Origin: Pomacea canaliculata
Lineage: Eukaryota > Mollusca > Gastropoda > Architaenioglossa > Ampullariidae
Assembly (NCBI RefSeq): GCF_003073045.1
Contig: NC_037596.1
Location: 27,936,392-28,000,391 of the forward strand
Direction: 5' to 3'
Length of the DNA: 64,000 nt
The notes beneath the pieces are model-generated. The model saw only the letters and a program-made list of their open reading frames with translations. It ran no database searches and was not told where the DNA came from. Position 1 is the first letter of the stretch; each line of letters starts with the position of its first letter. Shown here piece by piece: positions 4,901-63,923 of the stretch. The position numbers were made by a program, and so were the translations under genes.

Positions 4901-7900
4901 TTTTTCTCTTTATTCGAAAGATTAATTTCTAAAAATTATTAATTATAGTTTATAAATATTTCTAGATGGACCATTAAATGCTGTGATCACCAACAATGAA
5001 AAGAAGACAGAAGATGAGTCAGAGACGATAAGTTTAACCTGCACAGCGACTGATGTTTATCCCTCAGCAGCTTTTCAATGGAATGTCACGTGTTCTAATC
5101 AGACTGACTCTTGGAATTCCAGTACATGTTTCTTCAACTTCACTCAGAAGTTTGAAAGTCTTTCGATATTATGTACAGCTAGCAACACATATTTTCATCA
5201 AGAGTATGCTTCAAATGTCTACGTCCTTTCTTCTTCTGGTAAATAAAAATGTTCGAACAATTTTTTTTTAGTTTTAAACAAAAGACAAGGGTTTAACTAG
5301 AGAAGAATGAAAGGTATCTTTAAATTTGCAAAAGTTTTTTTTTTTATCATTTTAAACGGATTACATATAAAAAATGTTCCACAAAAATCTCGTTATCAAG
5401 ACTTTTACTGACCCTTACATTCTTGCTATTGCTCGTTTGTCTGTCCATAAGTTGTTTCTTTTGAAACTGAATTTTTAGTTTGAAAATCTGGCGATATCAT
5501 GCACAGCTAATAACAGATATCCCCATCAAGCATATGCTTCACATAAAAACATCCTTTATTGTACAGGTCAATAAAACTTGCAACGCTTTTTTAATTTTAA
5601 AACTGGAACAAAGGAACTTAAAGAAGAATTAAAATTATTTACCGTATATTGCCTTCACGGAGGTAGGATGTAATACTTTGCAACGATGTACAGTCTCTTC
5701 ATATTTTAAACTCAGTAAACATGTAAAACATGCTCCAGAAAATAAATTACATTTTGTTATCCAAAGTTTACTGGCAGTAAATTTGTTTATATTAGTTGCT
5801 CGTCTGTCTATAAGGTGTTTATTTTCACGCCACCTTAGATCAATTTATTTTTTAATTTTTTTAGAAAGCCAGCAAGCGAGCACAGGTGGACCTAATGCCG
5901 GGTTAATTGGTGGTGTTATTGCAGCTGTACTTGTTGTACTCATCATAGTTGGAGTCTTGATTGTGTACATCATCAAACGAAGAAAAGGTAAAAACGTCTG
6001 ACATTCTCCACCTAAACCCTTAGAACTTCTAACTCCTATCAATTTTTTTATATTTAATCTACAGCGCAAATGTTAATGACATGTAAAGCCCTAGTTCAAA
6101 TATTCTATTTACTTAGCTATCTACATATTTCGCTTTTTTAATTCTTTTCTGTATTATATCGAATACTCTTTCTATCGTATGATGCATGAAGTAACAAATA
6201 ATCTTTCCTTTTCACAAATTCCAGACAATTTTAAAGAATTGGATAAATATGTACATTGATAGTATGTTTGCTTTATAGAATCTAATATATTGTGAAATGC
6301 TAAAGAAAAAATATAAAAAAACGGCACATTATCGCCTTGTTTTTTCCTTTGACATCATCGTAATTTTTCGACTTTACAAGAAATGCTTTAGTCGGGTCTA
6401 CATCTCCTTAAAGTTTACATGTTTGTTTAACACACCGCATCTGTTTGGACATGCCAATGTCAGGCGAGTGTATTTTCTCATCTTTATCGCGTACTTTGTA
6501 AGGAATAGAGTCTAGTAAAAGTTACTTAATGTGCCTGTGATTATTATTAACTAAAAAACCGTTACAAAAACTATAAAATACAATTGGATTTCTCTCAGGT
6601 ACAATAAACCATACATCTCTTTTCTTTTTTCATTTGTATGCGCTTGTTTTTGTGCTTGATATAAGTTTTATTATATAATTTCTAATGTCAATTAATTCCT
6701 CGTTTGTGAGAATTAAATGCTTTTGATTATATAGTTATGTATACCCTAATGTAATGTATTGTGTTTTGCATCATTTACATAGGTCATAAAAGTAACAAGT
6801 ATCCAATGTCAGAATACAACAACTCTTAATAAATTAAAACACATTAACCTACTGGTCTTTAATATCTTGTTTAACTACAGGGACGCTAGACAGAGAGAGG
6901 GGTTTCTTTGGATTTGTTTCTGACGTCCGCAAACAATATCACAGGGAACTTGCGATGTCACAGCAATATGCTGTCGTCAATACGCCTCAGACACAGACAC
7001 AGACACAGACGCCCATAAGACGAGAGGCAGGTCCTTCAGGCGACATGTACACCATCACTAAAGCAACCAGTTCCGGTCACGTGGTAGATGAATATGCAGC
7101 GGTCTGTAAAACCTCCTTCAACAACACCGGTGGAACAGAGAGTGATGGCGCTCACCAGACGACTCAAAAGACGCAGCAACCAACAACAGCATCGAAACCA
7201 ACAACAAAGCCAACGCTTACTGTAAATAGCAGGAACGTCCAAGATTTGCATGGTAACAATGGACGTCATTCACAATATGATAAGATGTCGAACCAATTAT
7301 TTGATGGATGTAAAAGAGGCAATCAAGACACATAACAAGTTTTAAAATACAAGAATAGGATTAAAAGAGAAAATATGCCAGTGATTTAAAACATCATTGA
7401 TCCTATCATAACGATAACACAGAGACCTGTATCCTAATGAGTTTGTAGATATATGCAGACATACACGGAAACTCGCATAACTATCCGTCGATTGATAACA
7501 TTATACAAATAATCCATAAAAAATCGTTCTTTAATTCAGGTACAGTTTATATGAATGTCACTGAGGTGCCGACTGACTCTGGTTTGGGTGTGTACCATGT
7601 AGTTCCCTGGGCAACAATGTCTGGATCACCTCTACCTGACACAAACGTAAGAATTGTCTGAAAGACATCCATCACAGACGATGTTTCTACGATAAAGCTG
7701 TTAAAATCATTTTAAATTGCACACAAGAAAAATGCTCTGATTTTACTTTATCAATCTCAGTTTATTAATTTTTAGTTACTAAAGGTAAAGAAGTTTTAAA
7801 GCCAAGATGTCTTTAACTGGATTGTCACCTCTTTAAATATTATTTATTGGGTTCTATATTGATAGATGTATTTGTAAAAACATATTTACAACCTTTTATT

Positions 7901-10334
7901 ACAACCTGTAACTTATAATGCCATTCACTTATTAAAACAGGAATATTCATTACCGTCAATTTCTGAAGATGAGTACAATGAACTACATTTCGAAGAGGAT
8001 CGAACTGGACAAGAGAACCAAGCCGATAACTACCACCATCTTCAAATCACATAACATCTTTTTCTGTGATATTTTAATCTGCTGCTGAACTTACTTTTAT
8101 TCTCTTCCCTACACTGTCTTTAGCAAGACTCTCGTAAAATAAATAATACAATCTCATTATTGACAGCTGTCACTGTTATAATAAGTCTCATCCTTCGATT
8201 TTGGATGAACAAGCGAATCTAGTCATGAAAACGTTTTTTTAACGACATCAACTATTATTATTTACGTTCAAAAGCCTGCATACATGGGATGTCAACATTG
8301 ACATGATCATCAGTGTTTTTTTCTCTCTCTCAGCTTAGCCATTCTTATTTGTCCTTTGCTGAAAGTTTCATCTCTTTCTTTAATCTCTTGGAACTACAAC
8401 CTCTCAGCAAGGAACAAAAACAGTCATGTTTTCATTGTTAATATTTGTTTCAAGATAACCAGAACCAAGCATAAGAACTTAAAAGTCTTCATTAACCACA
8501 AAAGACAAAAAGGAATCCTTATTAATCATAATCATGTGTTTGCATAAAAATTCTTAGTTTCGGTCTGGTGGCAGATACGCGATGCCTGAATTCAGAATGA
8601 ACAGTCACTGGAACTTTTCTGTTACACAAGACATTTAGTTAATCAACTCATAATGTTGTGATAACATGACATGATATAATATAGTGCACCATTTGCATCT
8701 AATGTTGTTTCAGGTCACGTGTCTATATATATATAATGTAATTAGACTCATCATGTTTTTACGAGTTTATTTGTATATTGCTTGCCCATATGCAATTATA
8801 AATCTTACTTGTAATATTCCTTCGACTTAAAAACATTGCTAGGTATTGTACTGCCCATAGCATTATAAATGGAATGTCGGAGTGACAAAAAAAGGTGGGA
8901 ACGACAGAAAAGACAGTTAGAAAGATACACGTATTCATACATTAAGAAAGAGAAAATGTAAGAAACTGGTTAATTAAAAAGTAAGCAATATGAATTACAT
9001 GAGAGCCAATTTTTTTCTGTTTTTGTTTGTTTGTTATTTTTAAAAGTTTATGTATGATTTAAAACGCGCTATTACATAGATTATGTTAGAATTTAATTAA
9101 TAACATAAATATTGAACCAAAAAACATGATATAATAATAATTATTTTTTAAATTTTTTGTAACACCATAATTGTGAAAATAAAATATTTCTGCAAACTTT
9201 TTCGTGCTGTGTATTTCAATCATTATGATAGTTACGATCAGAAAAGTAAGCAAAACTATCACACAGTACATTTTTCACACACACATATCTGTATATAAAT
9301 AACAGTAGTGTCAATGGTGTACGATGAAAGCTCTGTGATGGAAGGATACGTAATTCCGAGAAAATTCGTCTCTAATTATCCAAAAGCTTAAATATCTTTT
9401 AGTCTGCTACCTTTTCTATTCAGTGTCAACTTGTTTATCGTTTTTTATTCATGCCGACAACTGACGCACCACAAAAAATTAAATCATAAGCCGTCTTATT
9501 TTAATTAGAATACAACTAATCATCTGTTATCTCACTACAATATATATATACAGCTACCAGTCTAAATCAAAAAGGCATCATTTACATGTAAAGAATTTTT
9601 TCAATGATTTTCGTGTCTTAATGTCACTTGTGGAGACTTTATTCTAGTTTTCCTATCTCAGAGCCATTGTATGACACGACAAGGAGACCTGAAAACAACG
9701 AACACAGCTACGTGGACCTCGCTCTTAGTGGAAGCAAATCATCACCAACAGCAGGTAGCTGAGTATTAACATTACTTTTTATCACTGCTCTGCTTAAACA
9801 AGTAACACTGGGAAAATTCCTTTTATGTGTATAATTAAAGCATAATTCAGTTGAGTATGGCGATATAGCCTAAGCCATAACACAAAACAACACCACCACC
9901 ACCACCACACCCCCACCGCCACCACCACAACAACAACAACAAACTGATACGACTCGTGCAGCAACACCAGCTTGACTGATGTTATATTCGTGGTGCAGGA
10001 GCTGACGATGACAAGGCTAAAAGAGAAAACAAAAATGAGCATCGCTACGAAGAAGTAATCATTGCAGGTCAAAATGTGTCTGAACAACCAGGTAACATAC
10101 CGTACATAAAATATTGCTCTTGTCTTTAAAATGCGACAACAAAGCTTATAATTGTGCATAATGACTGATATTTTGCAAAATTATTTTTAAATGCATACTG
10201 CTTAGAAATGAGCATCATTTGGAGTATTTTAGATGAGATAAATAGTTATAATAAAAGAGCATCTACAACAAGGTCTGATTAATAAAAGTTATTTGTTATA
10301 ATTTCTTTTGACAGAACTGGTAATCCCAGACTGA
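1986..10334 (+). CDS. Gene 1: Ig-domain transmembrane receptor, 5' end missing
   Basis: Type I membrane receptor of the tandem family. Visible exons: D1 1986-2309, D2a 3098-3234, D2b 3543-3717, D3 4428-4679, D4 4966-5238, TM 5865-5987, CYT1 6881-7252, then tail A (CYT2 7540-7646, CYT3 7941-8054 with stop) or tail B (CYT4 9662-9754, CYT5 9999-10091, CYT6 10315-10334 with stop). All junctions are GT-AG; introns are phase 1 except inside D2 and between CYT2 and CYT3 (phase 0). D1 keeps the Ig pattern FTC ... TLSC plus an outer Cys pair and a CINKEC loop. D4 has the CTATDVYPSA core. The TM exon has a long Leu/Val/Ile stretch followed by KRRK. No signal-peptide exon is present before D1. By comparison with gene 3 it should lie about 1.2 kb left of the window. 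The ligand is unknown; an immune or recognition role is inferred. Confidence 0.88.
5479..5566 (+). pseudogene. Duplicated half of D4 exon inside gene 1 intron
   Basis: After a TTTTAG the sequence reads FENLAISCTANNRYPHQAYA and onward to a CAG|GT. It is clearly related to the second half of D4 (FESLSILCTASNTYFHQEYA at about 5151-5238). It lies 328 bp downstream of the original, and flanking intron sequence is duplicated as well. It would enter in phase 0 after a phase-1 donor, so inclusion would shift the frame; it is probably an exon relic. Confidence 0.75.
7540..8054 (+). other. Gene 1 tail A: terminal exons CYT2 and CYT3
   Basis: CYT2 (7540-7646) enters in phase 1 and leaves in phase 0. 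CYT3 (7941-8054) enters in phase 0 and ends in TAA. CYT2 encodes TVYMNV, which fits the immunoreceptor switch pattern TxYxxV, and then YHVV. CYT3 encodes SEDEYNEL, an acidic run before YxxL that recalls the hemITAM of Dectin-1 and CLEC-2, and ends near YHHL. A polyadenylation hexamer follows at 8138. The phase change means that once CYT2 is included only CYT3 keeps the frame, so this tail excludes tail B. Confidence 0.82.
8138..8143 (+). terminator. Polyadenylation signal, gene 1 tail A
   Basis: AATAAA lies 84 nt after the CYT3 stop. Gene 3 has the matching signal 91 nt after its CYT3 stop, in homologous sequence. This supports real 3' end formation here, upstream of the tail B exons. Confidence 0.6.
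9662..10334 (+). other. Gene 1 tail B: terminal exons CYT4, CYT5, CYT6
   Basis: CYT4 (9662-9754) and CYT5 (9999-10091) are symmetric phase-1 exons, and CYT6 (10315-10334) adds six residues and TGA. CYT4 carries PLYDT and HSYVDL; CYT5 carries HRYEEV, all possible phosphotyrosine or YxxPhi sorting motifs. Because CYT1 and the TM exon both end in phase 1, either could splice directly to CYT4. Gene 5 has lost CYT1-3 and has the TM exon followed directly by CYT4, so that order is possible in nature. Confidence 0.8.
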
Positions 10335-10499
10335 TTTATGAGAACCATCTTCTTCGATTGTTCCAAATCTGTAAATACTTTACACAGACTGATTGGTAAA
10401 GCACTAGAGTTCGTCCTGGATTTTTAAAAGTTGAAACAGCCTTCATTGATTATTCGACTTAGTGGCTTTTCATTGATAACTATATCAAACATGATCTCA

Positions 10500-10505
10500 A
10501 ATAAA
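10500..10505 (+). terminator. Polyadenylation signal, gene 1 tail B
   Basis: AATAAA lies about 166 nt after the CYT6 stop. Gene 3 has a homologous hexamer about 181 nt after its CYT6 stop. Confidence 0.5.
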
Positions 10506-11554
10506 AAAAGACACATTTTAGAATGTTTATGCCTAAAAGAAAAATATATGTTAGTATCTTTAGTTGTGAATCTGAAATGGACTTGTCACACAAAGTTTTT
10601 ACATCAGTATTCAGTCTCTGTATTATCAATCGTATTTCGTTGCTCTCAGGTCTTGATTATGTTTTTCCCTGTTTGTTTTTCATTGATTTTATATAAGCAT
10701 AATAGTAAAATGGCATATTACATTAAATTGCAATAATTATGTAATGTTTATAATATTGCATGTTAACTTTTGTAACCACGTTTTTGTGTATACCCGTGTA
10801 TATATACACTTAATTATCTCAGACTCTTTTTTACTCAATTTGGAGACACGTGTTTATTTATGATGCTCTTTAAATACAAATATTTTTAGCTTTGCTTATA
10901 AACATGATATATATTGTGTTTACCATGCTGTCATTGTATCTATTTTTGATCGCCACTTTTCTCTCTTTTTATCCCTCCTCTCTCTAATCCTCCTTAATTT
11001 ATAAAAAAATCATACTTAATAAGTGACATTTCTACTTCGATTAAAATCGTTCACATTCAACTCCTCTCCAAACTCTTGTCCCGCCCTGACAGGGTGGATA
11101 CCAGTTAATTCAGCTACAAGCTCCATTATTTGGTGGACGAGTGTCATTTCTTATCTCCACTCACATTCCTAAAGCGTCAGGTTAATTGTTTTGAACATAA
11201 AGCTGCCTGGAGTTGATACATTTATTTTAAATTAACTGCTTAGTGTGACATCAACATAAACTTGCATAAATACAAACTGTATGTAATAAACTGAGCAGCA
11301 ACTGGGGAATTAAAATTTAATAGATATATATATATGTATATTTCATGCTTGTTTTCGCTAATGCTGAGTAAAATGTTCTCACGACTCACGATTGTGTGAT
11401 TTGTAATTGAAATTTCGGGTAAAAGGACAAAAAAACAGTCCTTTGTGTCTATAACATGAAACTTCTCGACCACAAATTATGGTAAGGAAGTCGGTTTAAA
11501 TATAATAGCTTTCATTCATCACTTTGTTCCCTTTTTTATTTCAACCTGTCGTAA

Positions 11555-11558
<4 letters not shown>

Positions 11559-11586
<28 letters not shown>
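11559..11586. repeat. (TG)n microsatellite
   Basis: Uninterrupted TG dinucleotide run in the intergenic flank of gene 1. Confidence 0.95.
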
Positions 11587-12129
11587 CTTAATTTTTATGA
11601 TTATGCATAAGGCTGAGTGTATAGATATAAAATCACCGATAAAGCTGAAGGTTAAACAATCAGATGTAAAAAAGAGACAGGAAAGAATACAATTTCAAGA
11701 GGATTTTCCTGAAAGCGGTAACTCATCTCTCAGCAATGCCTCGTACCTAAGAGAAATCTTACACGTGAAGAGGACACGCTACCTGCCTACCCACCTCCAC
11801 AAACGCACGCACTCACACACACACACACATACATTTACGCATTCCTGCTCACTCACACAGATGGAACATGAAGCTAAATTGCTTTACACGCAAGCATCAT
11901 TTACATAAATTTGTTCGCATGCAATCAAAAACTGAATTGTTGTTTAGCGAAAAAGTGAATATGAATACTATGATTCCTACATTTACTATTGTTAGTATTA
12001 AAATCGCATAATATATGAAAATTTTATTTACATTTTTATAGCAAAATTCATTTAAATGCATGAAGTTATATTTTATTCCTCGTTATCTCAGTCCTATGAA
12101 GTTCTTAAACAGGATATGTAAATAGGCAG

Positions 12130-12220
12130 GGCTTCTGCTAAGGCTAAATTCTTTGAGGTCCCAGGGACCCCTTCTTCAGATTTCTAAGGGGTCCCAGGCT
12201 AACTCTAAGGGGTCCCTTTA
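12130..12220. repeat. GGGGTCCC-rich patch, possible transposon remnant
   Basis: Several GGTCCC/GGGACC motifs in both orientations lie in sequence unlike its surroundings. The matching position downstream of gene 3 (between about 40180 and 41090) holds different sequence. This suggests an insertion, but no boundaries or target duplication could be fixed. Confidence 0.35.
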
Positions 12221-12529
12221 CAAAGTGAAAAAAATCAACAAATCAACTACTTTGTTCAACTGCCTTTCAGGCACACAAAGCACTGTCATGTCTAGTCAGA
12301 AACGGCGAGATTTCTATGCCATGAAGTCTGTGCAAGCATCTGTGATGAGCTTAAGTTAAGTTACTTTGCTTAATCAAGTGATCTGACATCTGTCACAGCT
12401 TATTTATTCATACAATTGATTCTTGAAGTCTTGAACTTAGTTACCACCACTAAAACTGTTATTATTTTTTAGTACCCTATGCAAAAAAATTGAGACTGCT
12501 TTGTAACTGAGCAAAACTTCTAAATGAAA

Positions 12530-12546
12530 TACACACACACACAACC

Positions 12547-12593
<47 letters not shown>

Positions 12594-12595
12594 AC
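12530..12595. repeat. (AC)n then (AAC)n microsatellite
   Basis: AC run passing into about 15 CAA/AAC triplets. The same compound structure, much shorter, is at about 41250-41285 downstream of gene 3, showing array length change since duplication. Confidence 0.9.
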
Positions 12596-13540
12596 ACAGT
12601 TGAAAAAATAATAATGATTCAGTTGGTCAAGAACGAGCATCTGCCTAAGTGCATTTAACTCTTATATATGCTTTTGAACGAGTTCTCGTGTAATAAAAGC
12701 TGGTAATTACACCTGCAGCAGTCACACCTGGTGAGTCACAGGTTCTCAGACAAGGACACTGAGGACTGCTATATAGTGGGATCTGAACCGTTAAGATAAA
12801 GAGAGAGCATATGTACATTGTCTATGAAGATACATTCGACCTATAAACCTGGTACATGTAGTACACAGAAATAAACTATGTGTCAGTACCTGCGTGTGTG
12901 TGCACGAGTTCGTCTCAGGGTAAGGAGGAGAACCCGCGCTTTTAAACCCAGATTGTTATCACGCATTACCTCCCCTGATAATTTTTTGTTTCTTCATAGC
13001 TGCAGTATCACTCTCATGTCGTAATGTGGATTATGAGTAAAAAGTGCTTCTTTAACGTGGTTTGTCTCGGTAACAGGGAACATAATTTGACTGATATCTT
13101 TTTCTCTTCATTGCTAGTTGACAAAGTAAAGAAAATAAACATATTCTAGTCTGCAACTTATTTAGTTTATGGTTTCCTGTAATCTTTCTTTTCTAGCAGC
13201 AAAACACCTACATTTTTCTCCAGAAACCCTGCATTTTTCTAACCGAAGATTGAAAGGAGAGGGAAAGAGAAGTCTGTGTAGTAAATTGTTTCAAACTTGT
13301 TTATCAATGTGGAGAAAATATCTTGTTTTTCGGCGGTAAAGGCCGGTGTCTTATATTCCCTCGCAAACTTACGTGTATACAGAATTAAGATTTGTAACAC
13401 AACAGAGCGAGTTTTGATCATTGCTTACTTCTGTGTAAATGTCTACATAATAACAACAAGAAACTGTCAAAGGCTATTCACATGTTTAATACATATGATA
13501 TAAGTAATATGTTGAAAACATACTCCTATGATACGAAATA

Positions 13541-13690
13541 TAATCCTGACAGGGGTGCAAACTATAACTGCCAAGAAACACGTGCAAATGTCCTGTTATC
13601 GTGATAAGCCTCACGAGACATTTTAAATAGAAGAAGGAAGTGATTCCCAGTCCTGTCCCCAGTGTGTCACCACCACTTGAAGTGAGAGGT
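13541..13690 (+). promoter_or_regulatory. Putative promoter of gene 2
   Basis: This block is shared with genes 3, 4 and 5. In order it has a CCTGACAG motif (13545), a TATA-like TTTTAAATAG (13621-13630) 189 nt before the ATG, and the palindrome GGAAGTGATTCC (13636-13647). The palindrome combines two facing GGAA cores of the kind bound by ETS factors. The assignment rests on conservation and fixed spacing among paralogues. Confidence 0.5.
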
Positions 13691-13809
13691 CGCACGCACA
13701 GACAGTATTGTTGTTTGTGTGGCAGGTGAAGGTGATTTCAGCATAGCTGTTCACATTGCCTTGTTAGTTGTGTTGTCAACATTTGTAGTTCTTAACAGTG
13801 AGATAAGTG

Positions 13810-22794
<8,985 letters not shown>

Positions 22795-22888
22795 GAGTTT
22801 AAACACTGCAGTGGAAGATCACGTGTGCTGTGTAGGAAACCACAAAATCCGCCTTACAATACGTTGTGTGCTTTTAGTAATGGTCCGG

Positions 22889-22894
22889 AATAAA
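22889..22894 (+). terminator. Polyadenylation signal, gene 2 tail B
   Basis: AATAAA, 95 nt after the CYT6 stop. Confidence 0.5.
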
Positions 22895-25760: not shown

Positions 25761-25880
25761 ATAACCCTGACAGTGGTACAGCCTGTAACAGCGTAAAAAC
25801 AGTGTACACAAATATAGAACAGGGAAGTGATTTCAAATCCTGGCCACAGTGTGTCACCACCACCTAAAGAAAGAGGTCGA
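25761..25880 (+). promoter_or_regulatory. Putative promoter of gene 3
   Basis: Same block as upstream of gene 2: CCCTGACAGT (25765), AATATAG (25811-25817) exactly 189 nt before the ATG, and GGGAAGTGATTTC (25822-25834), in which one arm of the palindrome is weakened. Confidence 0.5.
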
Positions 25881-25999
25881 AGGGAAAGACAGTGTCGTTG
25901 CTTGTGTGACAAGTGAAGTTGATATCCCCATATCTACAGGTTGTTTTGCTCGCTGTGTGCTGTCAACATTTGTACTTCTGTCAAACGAAGAGGCAAATA

Positions 26000-28900
26000 A
26001 TGGCTGTCTGGAGCCTGTGGATACTGTGTGGTGTGGCACTAGTCGCTGTAAAGGATTGCTCAGGTACTTATTGTTATATTAATTTGTCGAGACGTGAACT
26101 GTAATGCAGTAAACGAGATAACAACGGAATGCTATTGTGCCTAATTGTGTTTTTTTCATCTACCTCTATCCCTAACTGTAACTACCAGAACTATATTTTT
26201 AAATTTGTCATAAGCACTGCAGATAACTAGGTTAAAAAGCGTGTTCCTTAAAGGGGCTACCTCGTCAACACAGTCTTAAAACACTCGCTTTGTTATGCTT
26301 TAGTGAGGAACGGTAAGTTCTTGTTCTTGTCGTATTAAAAAAACATTTTGTTATATATAAACGAAATTTGCCAGTTTATGAGCAACACAAACATATATAT
26401 ATATACAAAGTAACACATATATAGCAGATAAACAGTATGTTCACTATATGACCTCACCTTTCACCTTTATGTATATGTAATTAGGCAAGCAAGCAGCATA
26501 CGCGTGGGCGAACATTTAGCTATAAATGCATCAATTGGTTGTCAAATCCTTTATTATGGCTAGCACTTGTTTCTCGCATGTAGGTTCTAGTGTTGTCACA
26601 CTGCAAATTCATTCATTAACGCACAGAAATACAACCCCAGACTCTACTGTGGCTACAACAGTGCATCGCACACCTGTGGGTGGCGCTGTGACTAGGCCAG
26701 GTCGCGCACTGTGAACGGACCATTGTAATTCTAGCTTTTACTTGTCGGGTGTGCAGTCTAGTCAAACATACCTCGCGTTTTATTCTTTGTTTCCTTCCAT
26801 TACACTTAGCAGACCATAAAGACATTTTTTTCCCAAAAATGTATCTTTCTCGGTGCGTCGTTCAGCTTCAGATAGATTCTCTTTCAATGGACAAGTGTGC
26901 TCACGAAAACTGATTGCACTATATTTTAACGTGCACAAGTTTTACTAGCTCAAGAAATATATAATTATTTCTTTCGTTCGACGAGGACAAAATGTACATT
27001 AAGTGCTGAATCCCACACAGACATACACACACAAAAATATACCTAACTATTTCACCGCTAATACAGAAAACTGGATTTATAAGTACGTGAGCCAAACGAT
27101 TTTTGACCAGAACACCTTTACGGTGTGAAGGCATTTTGATATCGAAATAATACAAGAAAGGAGCGACCCCTGAACGCTGCAGCAAACAGGATGCGTGTTC
27201 CCTGGTGTTTGTGCTTTGTACCCGTCCCAGGTTTACTGGTCTCGCTCGCACAGTCGGCCACGTTTATTAAAGGGAAGGCGGTAAAGGGTGGAGGAAACAA
27301 AGCACTAGCAGGAGTACATAATTTCCCAAGCAAAAATCCCACTACCCGGCAAACAGGTAGATTTTCTCTTTGAAAGGTGGGGGGGGGGGTGAATAGATGA
27401 TAACGTTACTTATTAAATACTAAATACTTTAGCCTGAGTCTTGTCTTCTTCTAAAATATTATTCACACTTGCAACGTCCCATTGCTTAAAGGTGAAAACA
27501 AAATTTAGTGCCTACTGAAAATCATTACGTGCAACACAAAGTGTTTATTCTGAATTAGCTGTTTCTGTATTATCCCTATCAATGTGCATATATGATAAAT
27601 ATTACTACAATCTGCACTTGCTCTTTCCGAATAATATCATTTCTTATAACCCAGTGTATAGTATATATCCTACTAAAAATGTTAAACAATAATGTGACAC
27701 TGGCTAGATCAACATATTTCATTTTTTATTAGGCTGTTGGATAGTTACTTCCGTGTCCGTATCAAGATGCTGGCCTTCATCAAATAATTTATGCCGGTTA
27801 TTGAAAATCAACTCCCTCTAACCCATGTCCCCCTTTAATACGCAGCCACAGCTTTTAACGGTTAATGGTCACATATATCATCACTCGGTTTTATTTGTGT
27901 TTCTGTCGTCCAGCTAGCGGTGGACTGAGTGGACTGAAACCTTTGTCCTACTTAGGCCTCTATCTTCTATTGACTTAGAAAAGAGAACCCGCATACCAAA
28001 CAAAACTGACGACAAGTATGCCTTGAGTTCTAACCTGCGAGTTCACCAGTTGTATATTAGCTAATCTGTTTAAGTATTTCGATAGATTGTATTGTCTATA
28101 GTTGAATCATGCTAATAGCTTACTTAGTATACTATGTAATTTACATGTCCTTATTAAAGACCCCGCTTTGGTACAAGATGTCAACCAATGCTGATTAGCT
28201 GGGTCAGATGATACAAGAATATCAAAACGGAGAATTAATTATTGGTTTTTAAAGTACAACTTTCAAGACAAAAAGCAAGGATCTGCTAAAGAACATGTGA
28301 AATAACCTATATCGTAAGACGAACACATTCCGAACTCCTTTTTAATTATAATAAAGAGAAACAGATATTTCTTATCTTCCCAGAGAGAATTCGAGTTGAA
28401 TTGTTTTAATAACCATAGAAAATACCTGAACTACTATTATGTTAATTTATCAACATTAAAATATGTTTTATATTTCTTTATTTTTAATAATAATTTATTA
28501 TAAGTAAATATTGACAATTATTCTTTGTTGCAGGTTTAGTTATCGGTGGCTGTGAACAGGGTAGTGTGGATGTTGTTGAAGACTCAGATCGCTTCTTTAC
28601 ATGTGATGGAAACCAGAACAGAGAGCTACAATGGGCAGTTTATAATGACAAAAGTATTTTTATTGCTCTATGCCTCCAATGGTCGTGCCTTCCTTGGAGC
28701 AACATATTTACATTTTCTGTAGAGCATAACTATGGCGATGAGTACTACAGATATAATCTTACAATGAAGACAATCACGAGAAACTCAGCTCGCACCTTGT
28801 CTTGCCGCGATTCCTCGAAGTATGCACAGTGTGACTTAAGAATCATCGGTAAGTAAAACAGTTAAGACATTGTAGATTAGTATGCCCTTAATGTTTTTTC

Positions 28901-31900
28901 TACTTTAATTAGTAACTTGCAACGACGTAAAAAATGCAATAATGCAGTCGTTCTCTCTTTTCGCCTCCCCCTCTCTCACACAAATCTACTCATTTATGTA
29001 GAACGTCTCCAAATCTTCATAGAAAAGAAAATATAATTTCAAAATTAATCGTTTTAGTTCTTTTACAAATTATTATGAAAAAGAAAAAGCTAACTTAAAA
29101 TTGTTTTTATAACATTATCGTAACGTGATTCACGAAATAGTAGTTCTGCTCTAAAATAATAATAATAATAAATAATAATCATCATCAACATCAGCATTAT
29201 TATTATTATCATCGCAAAAAGTTGTAAATCGCATACTCACACTTTAAAGGAGCGTTCTCGTAGCACTCCAGAGCAAGAACGACACATGGGCAACATACAA
29301 GCGACATAAAAAAAACAAACAAAATATAAACTACGAAAGAATATACACTACTAATGATGATTAAAAATAATACAGAAAACGCAAGAAAGAGCCAAAGTAT
29401 CGTGACCTTGCACAAATGGAGACGATTAGTAAACAAGCAATAAGCAAAGAAGGGGAACAATTTTGAAAAAAAGGACTTGCAATGTGGGAATGTAATCTTC
29501 ACGGAAGAGTTGCGTTTTCAGTGCATGTTCAAAGCATTCAGTAGCATGTAGGTGAAGAATATGGAAAAACAGAGTTTTTTTGATTTGCTGCAAAGTTACT
29601 AAAAGTCTGTGGCCACATTTTGTTTTCGTGGCAGGAATATTTATGGGACTGTTGTCTGATGAGTAGGGGATTCTCTGGATGATATAAGGTAAAAGCTGTT
29701 CAGGAAAAATATTCAGGACAGGTGCCAGCAAAGACAATAAAACACAGCAGGAACAATTTGTACTGGATGCCAGAACGGATGGGAAGGCAGTGTAGAAAAT
29801 TGAGGAAAGTGGTGGCCGTTTCCTAGCTCTAAGCACCAGACGTGCAGCAGAATTCTGTACTTTCTGGAGTTTGTGAAGAAGGTATACAGGGCAGCCAGCA
29901 AGCAAGGAGTTGTAGCAATAAAGAATTTAGAGAACAAATGAACTGACAAGAGAGTTGGTAGTGCGGGTAGACAGAATGTGACAGATATCACTGATTTTGT
30001 GTAGTTCATTATAGAAAGACTGACAGACAGCTGTAACTTAACTATCATAACAGGCAGACTGACAGACAACTGTCTCTTTTCTAGCAAGAGTCATGCCTGC
30101 AATGACATTGAAAACCAGATTCCTGGGGAATGATGATGATTTCGCCCAGATTGATGCGACCTAGCGGGCAAACGAGTGGAGATTGGTTTTCAGCTTGAGC
30201 ATAGGAAATGTTCCATTTTATCATCACTGAGCTTAAATTTCTTTGTTATTATTCATTTTTTGACGTCATTAATAGAAACTTATATGGTGCTAGTGCATAT
30301 ATATAAAGAGAGAGAGAGAGAGCGAGATAGAAATAAACTTTTATCTCTATAAAGAAGGCTTACATAAACAGTACAAAATATTCATTTTTAAAGGACAATA
30401 AATAAGGTACACTAAATAAATAAAATTAACATTCATTTGTGGAGGAACGTTTAAAAACCTTTAATTTTGTTATTGTTCCCTTTTGGAAATTATGTTAATA
30501 TCCTTTTTACATTTAGAACATGATTTTTGGTTAAATATTTAAATATTTAGTAGAACTTCAAGGAACATCATATATATATATAAAATTGTATATAATATAC
30601 AATTTAACCATATAATGCAAATAATGTTGCAAGAAAGATAAATGCGTCAAATATACACATATTGTGTCAAGTGAAACCAGTGTATAGTGACTGCAATGTA
30701 ACAACTTTAAACTGGATGGTGATCGGCAGCTGTACAGTCAGAGGAATGTATTCTTCAGACAACATATACACGTGCAAATGGAGGGAGAATGAAAATAACG
30801 ACGTAAATATTTATTTTTCTGTTCTCTTTTTTATGCCACTCATTTCTCTCTCACTCTCTGTAATAACATGCACAATGCATATTTCTTCCTGCATTTTTAT
30901 CCCACAAACTTTTTTTTATAATTTAACGTTCAAACTACGACAAAATGTGATCTTAATTATTCCATGATTTACTATGACAAAATCATATTTATTTATAATA
31001 TACACTTTATAATTTTATTTATAATATACACTTTATAATTTTATAATTTTATAATTTTATTTATAATATACACTTTCTTTGCACTTTCTTGTAAAGTTTT
31101 AGGTTTTTCATAAAATGTAGATATAAATAAATGCTATTCATCAAACCAACAGTTCAGCTGTTACGCATCCATTATAAAATCTTTTTTTCAGGAACTCAGT
31201 GGTTTTAAAAACAGTCTAACGACTTATACTGAGGGTTCAAGGACTTATACTGAAGGGGTTTGTTCTTTTGCGAAACCAATTCCCCAAACTAAAGGCATTT
31301 ACACGTACAGTATAAGCGTGTCGCCAGGTGCCGATGATCACGTTGTTACAAGTATGCTTATAGGTAAGATGTTTAAAACAACTACATTTAAGTTGTACAA
31401 CAGTTCATACAAAACTATTAGTTTATCAAATACAATATCATAATTATATGGTTAGTCCTATGAAGAAAAATTGAAACCTGATACAGGAGAACATTGCTAC
31501 CTTGTTAGACATTGTGTCCATTCTTTTTGTTTCGTATCTCCCGCAGTAGAGCATAGGGCCGAAAGGCTTCCGCCAACACACGTCATGGGTCCTTCCAAAG
31601 AGGAACTTTTCCGTCCAGGCTCTCCTTGTATAGTGTTGTTTTTTGTGGTTTCTGTAGCAAAAAGTTTTTTTAAAAGGGGGTTGCTATCTCAAAGCCCAAC
31701 CCTCCTTCTTCATTTGGGCTTCGGTCTGGGAAGTTATCCGGGAAATTTCCAGGCCAGGTTTGTGTCTGTCAATGACCTCCTTAACAGATGTCTATGAAGG
31801 AATAAATGAATAAGTAAGTCACTAGAAGAAGTCACCAAAGTCAGAAGGCAGCAAAATATCAAACGACAATATTAAGTTTGAATTTTTTTCCTGCATACAG

Positions 31901-34900
31901 ACAGTGGCCTTATTAGGCACAGAAAGAATGTTCACTTGTTATCTTTATTGTGAGATAAGGTCACCGCTATAACAACAGGGATGGTTGTCAGGTAATACCA
32001 ATGAAAGAACTAACCCGATATTAGGAGGAGTGGTGTGAGCGTTCTGATGACCAACGAGTATTGCTGTTTAAAATATTCGCAGTACTGACCTGACAGTTGT
32101 ACATTATTACGCTGATGTATTTAGTGGTGGTTACTCATTTTTCCTTCTTCTCATCCCTTCCCTTTTTTGTTAAGTTTATTACAATACTACGTTCTTACAT
32201 ACGTATCTGTACTATCTGTGTTTGGGATATATCCTTTACTATTTTACTAAAGAAATGGTTCATCTTGTAGATTGACAAGGGTATAGAGAACTGGACCAAA
32301 CATACGGATCTAATATCTTTTAGATTAACAATAATTCAACACATTGTTTTTTTTCCTATTGTTTAGATGCGCTACATTGGATACAACTCAGCCACAACTG
32401 TCCTGAGTATGTTTTCGAGGGTTTAAATGTGAGTTGTACATGTTCTGCTTCAAGAGCTATAAGTCCACCAGCATTTCTAGTGTGGGGAGGAATGAGTAAT
32501 GCAACCCTTTTGCTAAAAAATGTAAGCCGGCGATTAAACCAACAAGAGTTTAAATGTCGACTAAAATGGAGTACAACCGGCTCAACTATAGAAACCACTT
32601 CTTACCAACTAACCGTTGCTTGTAAGTAAATTATACATACATGTTTATTTCTTTTAAAAAGTATCTATCTATTCTAGTTTTGTCAATTTCTTTCTCAAGG
32701 TTCCGAACACACTTGCACACACACAAACACAGTTTAAAACTATTCACTGCACAAGAGAGAGATATAACCGTAAACCGCAACTGCGCTTAATCTGAGAATT
32801 TACAACGATATACAAAACACAAATCCGATTTCAAATACTATTATAAAGGATAGAGAAAAATTAATTGTCTCTATATAGAAGTGTAAAGATGAAAATATTA
32901 GAGCACATATATATTAAAATTCGGAGTAAATAGAAAAAATGCGATTAGCAGGCACTAAGGATTTTTCTATGTTTTATAAAAATCGCTTAAAAACATTATT
33001 AATTTAATTTTACAATGTTTCTAGATGGCCCCGCAGATGTCCTAATTACCAACAATAAAAACAAGACAGAAGATGAGATGATAAGTTTAACCTGCACAGC
33101 GACTGATGTTTATCCTTCCGCTGTTTTTCAATGGAATGTCACGTGTTCTAATCGGACTGACTCTGGGAACTCCAGTACATGCTCCTTCACGTTCAACCCG
33201 AAGTTTGAAAGTCTTGCGATATTATGTACAGCTAGCAACGCATATTATCATCAAGTGAATTCTTCATATGTCTATGTCCTCCCTACTTCAGGTAAGTTAA
33301 AAGTTTTACTTAAGAATAATTTAAAATATTCAATTTTGTATTCGTGTTTATACTTCATTTCGGTTGGATGCAATACTTTAAAGATTGCAACAATCTTAAA
33401 TTTAAAATGGTTTGTTTTAGGATTTCAAATGTATCATAAATATAAAAATGCTGCAAAACATCGTTGTCCCTAGTTTACTGGCACAGTATTTGTACGTATT
33501 TATGTAACTGTCCATAAGGAGTTCATTTTGAAACTGAGTTTCAGATAATTTTTTTACCAGGAAGCCCACAAGCAAACACAAGTGGACCCAATGCCGGATT
33601 AATTGGTGGCGTTATTGCAGCTGTACTTGTTGTACTCATCATTGTTGCTGTTTTGATTGTGTACATCATCAAACGCAGAAAAGGTAACAGTCTGACACTC
33701 TCTAATCAAATGTTTCAACTGCTTGTAACTTTGGTCAAGTTTTTGTTGTGGTTGTAAATCTACAGTGTCAATACAAATGACCTATAAAGTATAAATATTT
33801 TATTTACCTGTCGATTTGTCTCTATCTATCTATTTATTAACTTTTCTATTTTTTTTATTTAATAATATATTCTATCAAATACTCATATAATGATCTATAT
33901 ATTCTTCCTACTGTAGCAAATAATTTTTCTTCTTTACAAGAACTAGACCTAATGGCTAAAGATATACATTAACGGTATACATGTTCTGTACAATCTAATA
34001 TTTTGTAAAATCCTAAAGAGAAAATATTCCCTAAAAAGCGGCATATTATCGCCCTGTTTTTCCCGTCACATCGTCGTTTTCTTTTCGTCTTAACAAGGAG
34101 TTGTTTAGTCGGGTCTACCTCACCTTAAGTTTAACATCCTCGTTTAACACAACATTTCTATTTGGACATGGCAATGTCAGGCGAGTGTATTTTGTTTATA
34201 TTTATCCCGCACTTTGCGAGAACTATAGTAAATTAAACCTTGTTCAATTTGTGATTATTATTAAGCATAATATCGCGCGACGATTTGTCTTTTTTAAGAG
34301 ACAGTAATCCATACAGTACCTCATGATTTAATTTCGTTGTGTTGGATTTAGTTTAATATTTAAGTATGAAATTTATATTGTCGATTACTGATTTATTTTT
34401 GATAAATTACTGCTATTTTTATGTAGTTAAGTGTATTATTTTTGAATTAATTGTGTCATTTATAATTTTAATAGTAGACAAAATATTAAAAGTAACCAAT
34501 TTCAGAAACATTTTTAAAATAAATACATTTATAATTAAATTCATAAAATAATTACATTATCATAACGGTCTTTGATGTTTTGTTTAACTGCAGGGATCTT
34601 AAACACAGAGGGAGGATTCTTTGGAATTTTTGCTGGCGTTCGCAAACATTTTAACCAAGGACCTGCTATGTTACAACCATATGCTGTCGTAAATAAGCCA
34701 AAAACACAGACACAGACGCCCATCAGACGACAAGCAGGTCCTTCAGGCGACATGTACACCATCACTAACACATCCAGCTCAGGTCACGTGGTAGATGACT
34801 ATGCAGCTGTCTGTAAAACCTCCATCAACAATACCGGTGAGGCAGAAAGTACAGACACTCACCAAACTACTCAAAAGACGCAGAGGATACGGGAACCGAC

Positions 34901-36850
34901 AACTGCATTAAAACCAACAACGAAGCCTAAACTAACATCAACAAATAAGACAAACATCCAAGATTTGCATGGTAAAAATAAATGTCGTTTACGATATAAG
35001 ATATCTAACAAAAAATTTTATGGATGTAAAAATTTAATCAAGACACATAACGTGTTTTCAAAATCAGTAAAATGATGCAAAGAGGAGAAATTTACCAGTG
35101 ATTTCATTGATTCAATCATAACAATGAAACAACACCTCTACCTAAATAAGTTTTTACATATATGCATACAAACACGTAAACTTGCATCACTATACATCGA
35201 TTAAGAACAATAGTTATTCTACAAATAATCAATTTAAACGTTTTTCCTTTAATTCAGGCACAGGTTACATGAATGTCACTGAGGTGCCGACTGACTCTGG
35301 TTTAGGTGTGTATCATGTAGTTCCCTGGGCAACAATGCCTGGATCACCTGAACCTGACACAAACGTAAGATTTGTTTTATTTATAATAATTTTTTTTCTA
35401 CGATGACCATTTTCAAAGTTCTCTCAAGAAAAATATTTGGGTTTAACATTATCAGCTTAAGTTTAATAATTTGTATGTAGGGCAAGGAACTTTTAATTCA
35501 ATAATAGTATTTTTGTACAGAATTGACCATACAGTAAAAGAATATTTATTGTGATTTATATTGATACACATATATATATATATGTAAACAAGCAATTGGA
35601 AGCATTTATTACAAGATGTTGTAACTTATAATATCATTCACATATTGAAACAGGAATATGCAGTACCAACAATTTCTGAAGAGGAGTACAATGAACTACA
35701 TTTCGGAGAGGATCGAACTGGACAAGAGGACCAAGCCATTAACTACCACCATCTTCAAATCACATAAACATCTGTTTCTGTGATGTTTTTATTTGCTGAT
35801 TAACTTAGTAATACATTTTATTCGCTTGATGACACTGTTTTTTGCAAGACTCGTCAAAATAAATGAAATATCATTATTGAAAACTGACACTGTTATACAA
35901 AATGTCATCCTTCGACTAAGGATGAACAAGTCTAATGTAGTCATGAGTATTATTTTTTAGCAAAGTCAACTGTTTTTATTTAGGTTTAAAAACCAGCATA
36001 AGTGGGATGTCAACACTGGCATGATCATCAGTGTCTTTTTTCTGTTAGCTTTGCCATTCTTACTCGGTTTTCTGAGTCCTTCGCTAAGAGTTTTATCAAT
36101 TTTTTTAATCCGTATTAATCCTAATCATGTGTTTGCATAAAGGTTTTCACAATTTCGGTCTGGTGGCAGATACGCGATGCTTGAACGATGAGCAAATAGT
36201 CACTGGAACTTACCTGTTACACAAGACATTTACTTAATTGTTCTGATCGTGATGTGATAGCATGAGATGACCTAATATAGTGCACCATTTGTATCTAATG
36301 TTGTGTAAGTGCATGTGTTTATATATATATATAATGTGGTTTCTTATAGTGATCATGTTTTATGGGTGTTTTTGTATATTGCTTGTCCATACGCAATTAA
36401 AAATCTTACTAGTAATACCCCTTACGACTTAATAATGTTGCGCTGTATTGGACTGTACTTAGCATTATAGCTGCAATGTCGGAGTGACAAAAAAAAAAAA
36501 AGAAGGAAGGAAGGACAGGAAAAAAATAACAAACGGGCTAATTAAAAAGTAAGCATTGTCCATTTCTTGAAAAAGAAGTTTTTCTGTTTATCTGTGGCTA
36601 CTTATAAAAGGTTTGTTCGTGTGAGTTTGAAAACGAATTATAAAAAGCTTTTGTTACAATTTAATTAATAATATATGTATTGAATCAAATAACATTATAT
36701 ATTTAGCATTATTTTTTATTCTTTGTAACACCTTCAATGTGAAAATAAAATCTATTTTGCAAACATTTTAGTGCTTTTTATTTTAAACATTATGATAGTT
36801 ACATAAAGAAAAGTAAGTAAAATTATCACACAGTACATTTTTGAGACACA

Positions 36851-36949
<99 letters not shown>

Positions 36950-37916
36950 AACAGTCATGTCAATGTTGTAAGATGAAAGCTCTGTGATGGAAGAAAATGA
37001 AATTCACAGAAAATCGGTTTCTAATTATCGTAATGCTTCCTGTTCTATTCAGTGCCAACTTTTTTATCGTATATTTATACATGCTATCAAATGATGCACC
37101 ACAAACTATAAAATCACAAACTGTCTTATTTTAATAACAATACATCTAATAATCTGTAATCTCACTATACAATATATATACATGTATAGCTAAAAATCTC
37201 AATCAAAAGGTATTATGTAAAGGTCCAGAAATTCTTAAATAATTTTCGTGTCTTAATGTCACTTTTGGAGACTGTATTATACTAGTTTTTCTATCTCAGA
37301 CCCATTGTATGACACTGCTCGGAGGCCTGAAAACAACGAACACAGCTACGTGGACCTCGCTCTTAGTGGACGCAAATCATCACCAGGTAGCTGAGTATAA
37401 GCATCCATTTTTATCATTGCTCTGCTTAAGGAAATAAGACTGGGAAAATTACATTTATGTGTATGATGAAAGCAAAAAATCAGTTGAGTATCTAATGTCT
37501 AAGCCATAACACAAAGCAAAACAACACAGCAACAACGAAACGATACGACGACTGCAGCTCAACAGATTTATTAATAATAATACATTTGTGGTGCAGGAGC
37601 TGACGATGACAAGGCTAAAAGAGAAAACAATAGTGGGCATCGCTACGAAGAAGTAACCATTGCAGGTCAAAATGTCTCTGAACAACCAGGTAACATACTG
37701 TACATACCACGTTGCTCTTGTTTTTAAAATGTAATAACAAAGATGATAATTGTGCATAATGACTAATTTGTTGCAAATTTTTTAAAGGCCTACTGCTTAA
37801 AAATGAGCAGTGTAGAGAGTATTGTAAATGGTTATAATGAAAACATCTATAATAAGGGATAAATAATAATAAATATTTATTTATATTTTTTGACAGAACT
37901 GGTAATCCCACACTGA
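26000..37916 (+). CDS. Gene 3: complete four-domain Ig receptor with two tails
   Basis: This is the reference member. Exons: signal 26000-26063, D1 28534-28848, D2a 30672-30802, D2b 31192-31363, D3 32367-32621, D4 33025-33291, TM 33561-33683, CYT1 34594-34971, then tail A (CYT2 35258-35364, CYT3 35654-35767) or tail B (CYT4 37300-37386, CYT5 37597-37689, CYT6 37897-37916). The tail A sum is 1926 nt (641 aa): signal 1-21, D1 to 126, D2 to 227, D3 to 312, D4 to 401, TM exon to 442, CYT1 to 568, CYT2 to 604. Tail B gives 634 aa with CYT1 or 508 aa without. D1-D4 each have paired Cys and many NxS/T sequons, as expected for an ectodomain. Cytoplasmic Tyr motifs include PYAVV, DMYTIT, DDYAAV, TGYMNV and EEEYNEL. 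Introns are larger than in gene 1 partly because of a LINE fragment and another insertion. Confidence 0.92.
26064..28533 (+). other. Intron 1 of gene 3
   Basis: 2.5 kb without a family exon. Parts match intron 1 of gene 1 (window start), and about 26470-26620 resembles intron 1 of gene 5 near 50540-50660. It contains a G-tract near 27379-27390. No transposon was recognised. The hAT element of gene 1 is not present here. Confidence 0.6.
29160..30240 (-). mobile_element. LINE (non-LTR retrotransposon) 3' fragment
   Basis: On the minus strand the frame at 29426-29905 reads CPVYLLHKLQKVQNSAARLV and continues to a PATKTKCGHRLL-like segment. This is the typical C-terminal region of LINE reverse transcriptases. 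The upstream part continues in another frame (29713-30087), so it is frameshifted and dead. Its 3' end (left, 29158-29215) runs into ATT/ATC triplets, as in tails of some LINE clades. The host intron is 1823 nt against 788 nt in gene 1, so the insertion after duplication accounts for the extra kilobase. The clade was not determined. Confidence 0.78.
30987..31076. repeat. AT-rich tandem repeat, unit about 27 bp
   Basis: About three copies of an ATTTATAATATACACTTTAT-type unit in the D2a-D2b intron of gene 3. Confidence 0.75.
31471..31815. mobile_element. Possible SINE-like insertion in gene 3
   Basis: A higher-GC segment ends in an A-rich AATAAATGAATAAG tail. The host intron (D2b-D3) is 1003 nt here and 710 nt in gene 1, so about 300 bp is extra. 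The 108-codon ORF across it does not look like a protein. No promoter boxes or target duplication were confirmed. Confidence 0.4.
35258..35767 (+). other. Gene 3 tail A: terminal exons CYT2 and CYT3
   Basis: Nearly identical in protein to gene 1 tail A: TGYMNV (TxYxxV), YHVV, SEEEYNEL and YHHL, then TAA at 35765-35767. Entry is phase 1, the internal junction phase 0. Confidence 0.84.
35858..35863 (+). terminator. Polyadenylation signal, gene 3 tail A
   Basis: AATAAA lies 91 nt after the CYT3 stop, in sequence homologous to the gene 1 signal at 8138. Confidence 0.6.
36845..36944. repeat. (CA)n microsatellite, about 100 bp
   Basis: Nearly pure CA run between tail A and tail B of gene 3. The matching place in gene 1 (about 9270-9290) has only a few CA units. 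Confidence 0.97.
37300..37916 (+). other. Gene 3 tail B: terminal exons CYT4, CYT5, CYT6
   Basis: CYT4 carries PLYDT and HSYVDL, CYT5 carries HRYEEV, and CYT6 adds ELVIPH and TGA. All three exons enter in phase 1. About 1.5 kb separates tail A and tail B. Confidence 0.82.
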
Positions 37917-38096
37917 TTTATGAGAACTCTATTTTTCACTTTATGTTCTCAGATGTCTTTTTCGTTTTACCGACTCGTACGACTGTTGCAAGTTTGTAAA
38001 TACTCCACACCGACTCACGGGCAAAGCAAACAAACAACATTCATTTATTATTCGACGCAGTGGCTTATTATTTATGACTATGCCAACATTATTTTA

Positions 38097-38102
38097 AATA
38101 AA
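38097..38102 (+). terminator. Polyadenylation signal, gene 3 tail B
   Basis: AATAAA about 181 nt after the CYT6 stop, matching the gene 1 signal at 10500. Confidence 0.5.
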
Positions 38103-43175: not shown

Positions 43176-43176
43176 A

Positions 43177-43216: not shown

Positions 43217-43217
<1 letters not shown>

Positions 43218-43401: not shown

Positions 43402-43403
<2 letters not shown>

Positions 43404-62900: not shown

Positions 62901-63923
62901 CACAAAAACTAGACCATTTTAAAGAATTTGCTAGAGATATATATTAGCAAGATATTTGTTTTGTGGAATCTATTAATTCATAGTAAATATTCCATAAGAA
63001 GCAGCACGTGATCGTTTTTTTCTACCCTGAACGTAGTCTTTAACTGTTTATATTTACAAGAAGACCATTAGTCAGGTCTACCTCATCTTAAGTTTAACAT
63101 TCTACTTCAACACAACATTTCTATTTGTACATGACAATGTCAGGCGAGTGTACTTTCTCTTATTATTAACAGGAATAGACTAGATTAAACGTGTCTCAGT
63201 TACAGAGTAGGAGGTTATTATTAATTTTATAGTAATAGTATTTGTATTTGTGTTCATGCAGATATATATATATATGTCATATACGTACTTAATGATATAA
63301 TTGTGCGCCTGATTGTGTTCTTTATATAGTTTAATGTTTTTATTTTATAATGTCAAGCAGTGCATTATTTGTGTGGAATTCGTTGTATTTTGTTATCTAG
63401 TTTTGTGTATAATTATGTATTTTATTGTTTCACTTATCATTTTAGCGGTTGATATAAAATTATAAGACACCAATAAAAATAATAAATCATGACACATTAA
63501 CGGACTGAGCTTTAATGCTATGTTTAATTACAGGTATGTTAGACAGAGAGAGAGCCTTCTTGGGAATTTCCTCAGACCCCCACAAAGATTTTCACAAAGG
63601 ACCTGCAATGCCTCAGCCATATGCTGTCGTCAGTAAGCCAAAGACACAGACACAGACACAGACACAGACACAGACGCCCATCAGACGACAAGCAGGTCCT
63701 TTAGGCGACATGTACACCATCACTAACACAACCAGCTCAGGTCACGTGGTAGATGACTATGCAACGGTCTGTGGAACGGTCAACAACAACACCAGTGGAG
63801 CAGAGAGTCCTGACACTTACCAAGAGACTCATAATACACAGAGGACAACAGAACCAACGGAAGCATTTAAGCCAACAACAAAGCCAACTATAACAAATAA
63901 CGCGAGCATCCACGATTGGCAAG
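56976..63923 (+). CDS. Gene 6: four-domain Ig receptor, 3' end missing
   Basis: Exons: signal 56976-57039, D1 59278-59601, D2a 60455-60591, D2b 60927-61098, D3 61561-61815, D4 62040-62312, TM 62534-62656, CYT1 63534-63923; later exons lie beyond the window. The visible protein is about 579 aa: signal 1-21, D1 to 129, D2 to 232, D3 to 317, D4 to 408, TM exon to 449, CYT1 to 579. The start AGCCATGG has a good Kozak context and opens MALWILWMLCAVSLLV. D1 is diverged (VLTISDCKDG) while D4 is close to genes 1 and 3. The D2a exon ends AAG|GC, so this intron would use a GC donor. CYT1 has the longest TQ repeat of the family and keeps PYAVV, DMYTIT and DDYATV. Confidence 0.88.
57040..59277 (+). other. 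Intron 1 of gene 6
   Basis: 2.2 kb without a recognised exon. It contains CT- and GT-rich simple sequence (about 57400-57420, 57640-57660, 57795-57812). The ORFs over these are low complexity. Confidence 0.55.
60592..60593 (+). other. Non-canonical GC splice donor, gene 6
   Basis: The D2a exon of genes 1 and 5 ends in G|GTAAAC; here the matching site is G|GCAAAC. GC-AG introns are a known functional minority class with a strong exon-side AG, as here. The acceptor at 60926 is normal. Confidence 0.7.

Follow-up and report, generated by a model that had tools for sequence, protein, structure and literature searches.

Two candidate terminal cassettes for the cytoplasmic tail in an array of probable immune receptor genes of the snail Pomacea canaliculata

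The window analysed here, a stretch of 64,000 nucleotides of the Pomacea canaliculata genome (C7:27936392-28000391), has a mean GC content near 34% (genome, 40.3%) and carries copies of a receptor gene family. A first-pass annotation had described three of them, genes 1, 2 and 3; all three are present, and genes 4, 5 and 6 are added here, bringing the number to six. Genes 1-3 were spliced by hand and then checked by script for exon borders and phases. Downstream of their outer exons lie a TM exon and six further exons, C1 to C6, which fall into tail A (C1-C2-C3) and tail B (C4-C5-C6):

5865..5987, + strand: gene 1 TM exon, ends in phase 1 (splicing and array annotation)
6881..7252, + strand: gene 1 C1, phase 1-1, tail A cassette
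7540..7646, + strand: gene 1 C2, phase 1-0, TVYMNV
7941..8054, + strand: gene 1 C3 with stop, YNEL and YHHL
9662..9754, + strand: gene 1 C4, phase 1-1, YDT and YVDL
9999..10091, + strand: gene 1 C5, phase 1-1, YEEV
10315..10334, + strand: gene 1 C6 with stop, LVIPD type
19058..19189, + strand: gene 2 TM exon
20101..20463, + strand: gene 2 C1
20807..20907, + strand: gene 2 C2, phase 1-0, SGYMNV across the junction
21093..21206, + strand: gene 2 C3 with stop, YNAL and YHHL
22222..22314, + strand: gene 2 C4, YDDL
22511..22579, + strand: gene 2 C5, YEEV
22745..22794, + strand: gene 2 C6 with stop, family type
33561..33683, + strand: gene 3 TM exon
34594..34971, + strand: gene 3 C1
35258..35364, + strand: gene 3 C2, phase 1-0, TGYMNV, 107 nt
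35654..35767, + strand: gene 3 C3 with stop, YNEL and YHHL
37300..37386, + strand: gene 3 C4, YDT and YVDL
37597..37689, + strand: gene 3 C5, YEEV

Gene 3 also holds a long CA repeat at window positions 36853-36944, between its tails A and B. Gene 4 (window 42145-47663) is decayed, judged by eye, with the Ig4 donor lost and a stop in the TM exon, and no donor was found for its TM exon or its C1. Gene 5 has tail B only: no C1-C3 was found in it, and an intron of 370 nt leads from the TM exon to C4. Gene 6 has tail A only, its C2 and C3 lying just beyond the window (C7:28000636 and 28000992), and the 3.1 kb before the next Ig1 exon yielded neither a tail B nor a C4.

53456..53578, + strand: gene 5 TM exon
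53949..54041, + strand: gene 5 C4, with a second possible start at an in-frame AG six bases on (53955)
54221..54313, + strand: gene 5 C5
54568..54629, + strand: gene 5 C6 as placed, its protein unlike the family type
62534..62656, + strand: gene 6 TM exon (array annotation, converted to window coordinates)
63534..63923, + strand: gene 6 C1

These genes belong to a larger array. Exon searches of the whole genome (440,159,624 bases, 24 contigs; E 10) had 28 C2, 23 C3 and 18 C4 among the matches listed, all on contig C7. The annotated region, C7 27.695-28.004 Mb and four smaller pieces, contains 29 gene-like loci, of which 13 combine tails A and B (a, d, h, k, m, n, s, t, u, genes 1, 2 and 3, and K2), six have B only (b, c, g, i, l and gene 5, the TM exon of g being spotted by eye), six have A only (p, gene 6, bb, cc, K1 and the damaged f) and four have neither (j, o, q and gene 4, with C1 retained in q and gene 4). 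For bb, cc and K1, the scan for tail B covered 2.2-2.4 kb past C3. Not included in the 29 are a C2/C3 relic at C7:27749768, a minus-strand C3 at 27891592, four further C3 loci (24280070, 24301260, 24332198, 24476676) and a C2 at 28006487; no C4 match was found near the last five. Loci b and o (C7:27712794-27716853 and 27871796-27872838) are short receptors with one Ig1-type domain before the TM exon, and no tail was found in o before the next gene begins.

Tail A lies upstream of tail B in all 13 two-tail loci, at a distance of 0.7-1.65 kb from C3 to C4. Both the acceptor and the donor of C4 are kept in 12 of the 13, the remaining locus, n, having a C4 with no detectable phase-1 donor. In c and l (C7:27726174 and 27845628), B-only near-copies of each other, C5 contains a common in-frame stop, so that tail B may end early there.

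No Pfam model of the Ig superfamily was listed at E 1 for the protein spliced from gene 3; scans of single exons at the same threshold gave Ig_3 in 11 of 13 Ig4 exons (best 6e-4, the first Ig4 member falling below the cut-off) and in 10 of 24 Ig1 exons, the best match of all being 'ig' at 5.8e-6 in one Ig1 exon. A Cys-Trp-Cys pattern is conserved in the ectodomain exons, and profiles compared with solved structures gave weak matches of Ig1 to CEA/CEACAM (2.7e-5) and CD4 (0.03) and of Ig4 to an antibody light-chain constant region (0.008). The family probably consists of immune receptors. Gene 1 (window 5479-5556) and locus t (C7:27916120) have an additional partial Ig4 exon between Ig4 and the TM exon. 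When Ig4-type exons were searched for across the genome (E up to 1; 83 candidates scored, so that counts are lower bounds), all 80 among the matches listed fell on C7, which makes up 30.9 of the 440 Mb, in clusters near 7.96-8.3, 20.94-21.14, 24.08-24.95 and 27.18-28.18 Mb. This confinement to one contig suggests a very large complex of Ig receptors on a single chromosome.

The phases of the tail exons restrict the ways in which they can be joined. As the first-pass annotation had it, in genes 1-3 the TM exon and C1 (phase 1-1) end in phase 1, C2 passes from phase 1 to 0 and is compatible solely with C3 (0-stop) and its stop, and C4 and C5 (both 1-1) and C6 (1-stop) enter in phase 1 and end in a separate stop; the spliced sequence bears out each of these points. 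Joining C2 to C4 loses the frame and runs into a stop, and a transcript containing C2, which exits in phase 0, therefore cannot read tail B in frame. Two sets of terminal exons, each with its own stop and both in frame to the same upstream exon, are found in genes 1-3 and in the array. Tail exon borders were initially set in frame (the C2 donor of h and k by hand, to the site used in a), and donors were later ranked, regardless of frame, against every GT within 60 nt. In 17 of the 19 tail-A loci, including all 13 two-tail loci, the best-ranked site was the phase-0 donor of C2; it came sixth in bb and fifth in cc.

The two tails carry different tyrosine motifs. In genes 1-3 these are those of the first-pass annotation: TVYMNV, SGYMNV and TGYMNV, respectively, with YNEL or YNAL in C3, in tail A, and YVDL or YDDL followed by YEEV in tail B. 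Across the family, a YxN site is present in 17 of 19 tails A, mostly with a second, YHxV site and with YNxL-like and Y[HN]HL sites. C4 has two tyrosines (YDT-like and YxDL-like) in the 18 aligned rows and in n, including 13/13 two-tail loci. C5 carries sites of the YEEV or YDMV kind and resembles C4, exon queries of either one matching the other at E 8e-3 to 7e-5. Three signalling motifs of immune receptors serve as a reference, namely the ITSM ([TS]xYxx[VI]), the ITIM ([IVLST]xYxx[LVI]) and the ITAM (two YxxL/I separated by 6-8 residues). The ITSM pattern, present in tail A of genes 1-3, occurs in 13 of 19 tails A and in none of 18 tails B; it is consequently not a feature of the family and was rejected as its signature. 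At least one ITIM match occurs in every C2-C3 part (19/19), mostly at the ITSM-like or the YHHL/YNHL site, and in two of 18 tails B (b and m). ITAM spacing occurs in four of 37 tails, three A (a, h, k) and one B (g), and in neither genes 1-3 nor most other loci; the C3 of a, h and k (C7:27707121, 27802040 and 27834697) is longer, its last tyrosines being YNHL, six residues and YFTL. By the general preferences of SH2 domains, YxN would suggest Grb2-like and YEEV-like sites Src-family partners, which we take as a lead only.

For gene 3, the C6 proposed at first pass fits, and a second last exon, further downstream, fits as well:

37897..37916, + strand: gene 3 C6 of the first-pass annotation, with stop, LVIPH, a type found elsewhere only in gene 1 and locus t
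37953..37999, + strand: gene 3 candidate alternative C6 with stop (VFFVLPTRTTVASL), family type

By eye, 12 of the 18 listed tail-B loci show a last exon with (A/V)xFxx(P/G) as part of its pattern, gene 1 and t having the LVIPD type instead. Potential poly(A) signals follow, or overlap, the stops of both tails in genes 1-3:

8138..8143, + strand: AATAAA after tail A, gene 1
10500..10505, + strand: AATAAA after tail B, gene 1
21202..21207, + strand: AATAAA overlapping the tail-A stop, gene 2
22889..22894, + strand: AATAAA after tail B, gene 2
35858..35863, + strand: AATAAA after tail A, gene 3
38097..38102, + strand: AATAAA after tail B, gene 3

The conserved placement of AATAAA after the stops of genes 1 and 3, to which the first-pass annotation had drawn attention, is real, but it says little, because the flanks of the two genes are 77-84% identical regardless, and it was dropped as strong evidence. 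In the array, AATAAA lies at -10 to +150 of the tail-A stop in nine of 19 loci, compared with 22% of random windows (p=0.012, for loci that are not independent), and is absent within 150 nt of that stop in the other ten; the hexamer includes the stop in m, s, u and gene 2. The poly(A) signals lend weak support to two tail ends.

Taken together, we consider it probable that each two-tail gene encodes one single-pass receptor with Ig-like outer domains and can end in either of two terminal cassettes. After the TM exon, which ends in phase 1, a transcript would take either C1-C2-C3 and end there, giving tail A with mostly YMNV, YHxV, YNxL and Y[HN]HL, or C4-C5-C6, giving tail B with YDT-like and YxDL-like sites and then a YEEV-like or YDMV site. 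The choice would be made through competition of the terminal exons, and the tail tyrosines would recruit different SH2 partners. The claim of two exclusive tails per gene stands as the best reading, with comparative support from 13 loci with the arrangement, from tail-B exons that, in genes retaining tail A, diverge more slowly than their flanks and from single-tail copies in several branches; that both cassettes are used from one gene is what we infer. Points against this reading are the near-neutral divergence of tail B in close pairs, the tests on C5, the C4 of c, i and l, the C5 stop of c and l, locus n, the gaps in AATAAA, the label shuffles on the tree, the possible effect of gene conversion and the failure to find an intronic control element common to the clades.

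Single-tail copies, either A or B, in several branches of the family are the most informative new fact. In a tree of outer and TM exons from 26 of the 29 loci (j, q and gene 4 left out; in six of the 26 rows, fewer than half of the columns are filled), well-supported branches force all four changes of the B-only label, two of the five changes of the A-only label and three of the seven changes of the two-tail label, any of which may be a gain or a loss. These numbers are not extreme, since shuffled labels were equally low in 43, 162 and 69 of 500 cases, respectively. The B-only loci c, i and l are nested within the two-tail loci d and m (support 100/99). Their TM-C4 intron resembles the TM-C1 intron of d at its start (78%) and the C3-C4 intron of d at its end (75-76%), its middle aligning with neither, and thus looks as a deletion of C1-C3 would leave it. 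From this nesting and these intron matches, a two-tail ancestor most likely lost cassette A there. The TM-C4 intron of gene 5 aligns only with stretches near the start of the TM-C1 intron of t and matches neither gene 3 nor either C3-C4 intron; deletion borders in gene 5 were therefore dropped, and the clean deletion picture depends on c, i and l. The repeated loss of one or the other tail suggests that each works on its own.

The sharing of one array by A-only and B-only genes would also be expected if two-tail genes had arisen by head-to-tail fusion, from an A gene followed by a B gene stripped of its outer exons, in which case tail B would lie outside the upstream transcript. We regard this origin as very improbable, as no outer or TM exon was found between C3 and C4 of any two-tail locus (E 0.01 in the window and 27.695-27.895 Mb; E 0.001 in the rest), and as c, i and l nest inside the two-tail genes with introns resembling a C1-C3 deletion. 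As these searches revealed no outer-exon relics between C3 and C4, tail B as the remains of a neighbouring gene was rejected.

Under the preferred reading of two cassettes behind one ectodomain, the distribution of C1 bears on how tail B is reached. Every one of the 19 tail-A loci has a C1, and the searches detected none in the six B-only loci. This makes C1-C2-C3 resemble a single cassette, with tail B likely to be joined directly from TM to C4; we infer that tail B would be reached mainly in this way rather than from C1. The first-pass annotation had proposed a C1-C4 junction, with C1 as a stem shared by both tails. This variant of the two-cassette explanation, which does not exclude it, has in its favour that C1 exits and C4 enters in phase 1, so that the join is in frame; the lack of C1 in B-only loci makes it the less likely route, possible though doubtful.

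Selection was assessed in a, d, h, k, m, s, t, u and genes 1, 2 and 3 (n and K2 fall outside all pairs and clades, and C5 was analysed without a), using four independent close pairs (h-k, d-m, s-u and t-gene 1) and four far pairs (gene 3-gene 2, h-m, k-d and t-u), whose paths overlap and which are near saturation. In the close pairs, exons diverge less than their flanks for C2 (0.037 versus 0.107), C3 (0.041 versus 0.081), C4 (0.051 versus 0.091, p=0.007) and C5 (0.050 versus 0.092, p=0.0045), with the exception of the C5 of s-u (0.083 versus 0.069). In c, i and l, which have tail B only, C4 diverges almost as fast as its flanks (0.043 versus 0.062, 0.075 versus 0.100 and 0.097 versus 0.094). 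Changes at the three codon positions within two-tail clades number 9/3/17 for C4 (p=0.0045), 16/14/29 for tail B (p=0.009) and 19/10/40 for tail A, and the bias was not significant for C5 (7/11/12, p=0.28). The pairwise dN/dS of tail A is 0.11 in close, 0.54 in middle (p=0.11) and 0.27 in far pairs; that of tail B is 0.78 (p=0.5, about neutral), 0.57 (p=0.18) and 0.16, and C5 by itself reaches 1.25 in close and 1.13 in middle pairs. By these measures, tail B is constrained over long times, with little recent amino-acid constraint, least of all in C5. Gene conversion within the array could slow exons without function. Between the six two-tail clades, the tail introns do not align at E 1e-4, and C4 still reads P.YDTARRP.NNEH.Y.DL with few changes. 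No intronic control element common to the clades was found at that threshold, and a conserved intronic element governing tail choice was rejected.

The weaker constraint on tail B than on tail A in close pairs (0.78 versus 0.11), the failure of C5 in the codon test and the missing C4 donor of n would fit a tail B that is a fading leftover in two-tail genes, with only tail A made and B of importance, if at all, in the B-only copies. This we judge unlikely, given that C4 acceptor and donor persist in 12 and both C4 tyrosines in all 13 of the 13 two-tail loci, that C4 and C5 diverge about half as much as their flanks, that C4 has its codon-position bias within two-tail clades and that it is conserved where the introns cease to align.

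Receptors and genes with alternative ends are known from vertebrates. CD244 (2B4) and Ly108 of lymphocytes have splice isoforms that provide one Ig-type ectodomain with alternative cytoplasmic ends and different tyrosine motifs, whereas in the snail genes a single exon, through its phase, prevents the tails from being mixed, and one or the other tail is missing from paralogues that have lost it. In the calcitonin/CGRP gene, a common body is spliced to a nearby terminal exon that has its own poly(A) site or skips it in favour of farther ones, as proposed here, but the alternative ends of the snail genes are three-exon cassettes, and what they encode is the tail of a receptor. The immunoglobulin heavy chain, to which the first-pass annotation had likened the arrangement, also has two 3′ ends per gene, each with a stop; its early end extends the last constant exon and drops the membrane anchor, while both snail ends follow the TM exon. 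That parallel is therefore loose, and separate terminal cassettes come closer to calcitonin/CGRP or CD244.

Among invertebrates, Daphnia Dscam has been described as an Ig receptor, expressed in brain and haemocytes, whose cytoplasmic tail includes variable regions (PMC11999971); it is a single gene with variable outer exons, whereas the snail family is an array of genes. Clusters of polymorphic transmembrane genes have likewise been described in the snail Biomphalaria as PTC1 and PTC2 (PMC7494358), a likeness by description only, and the main text of that paper does not contain 'cytoplasmic', 'splic' or 'tyrosine' (PMC7494358). The word 'immunoglobulin' is absent from the main text of the Pomacea canaliculata genome paper (PMC6129957), and among the titles and abstract openings listed in searches of an open-licence library we found no publication on this receptor family or its tails, although others may exist.

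On a tentative view, for which the likelihood is modest, the array forms part of a single-chromosome snail immune receptor complex comparable to the vertebrate leukocyte receptor complex, whose ancestral genes could each switch signalling by terminal cassette, and in which duplication and repeated cassette loss made the two splice forms into separate paired receptors. If this is true, the array would be a natural dissection of a splicing switch, with 13 two-tail, six A and six B genes under related outer domains, and would make it possible to test directly whether duplication turns splice isoforms into separate genes. It would also show how an invertebrate receptor family gains distinct signals without two gene families.
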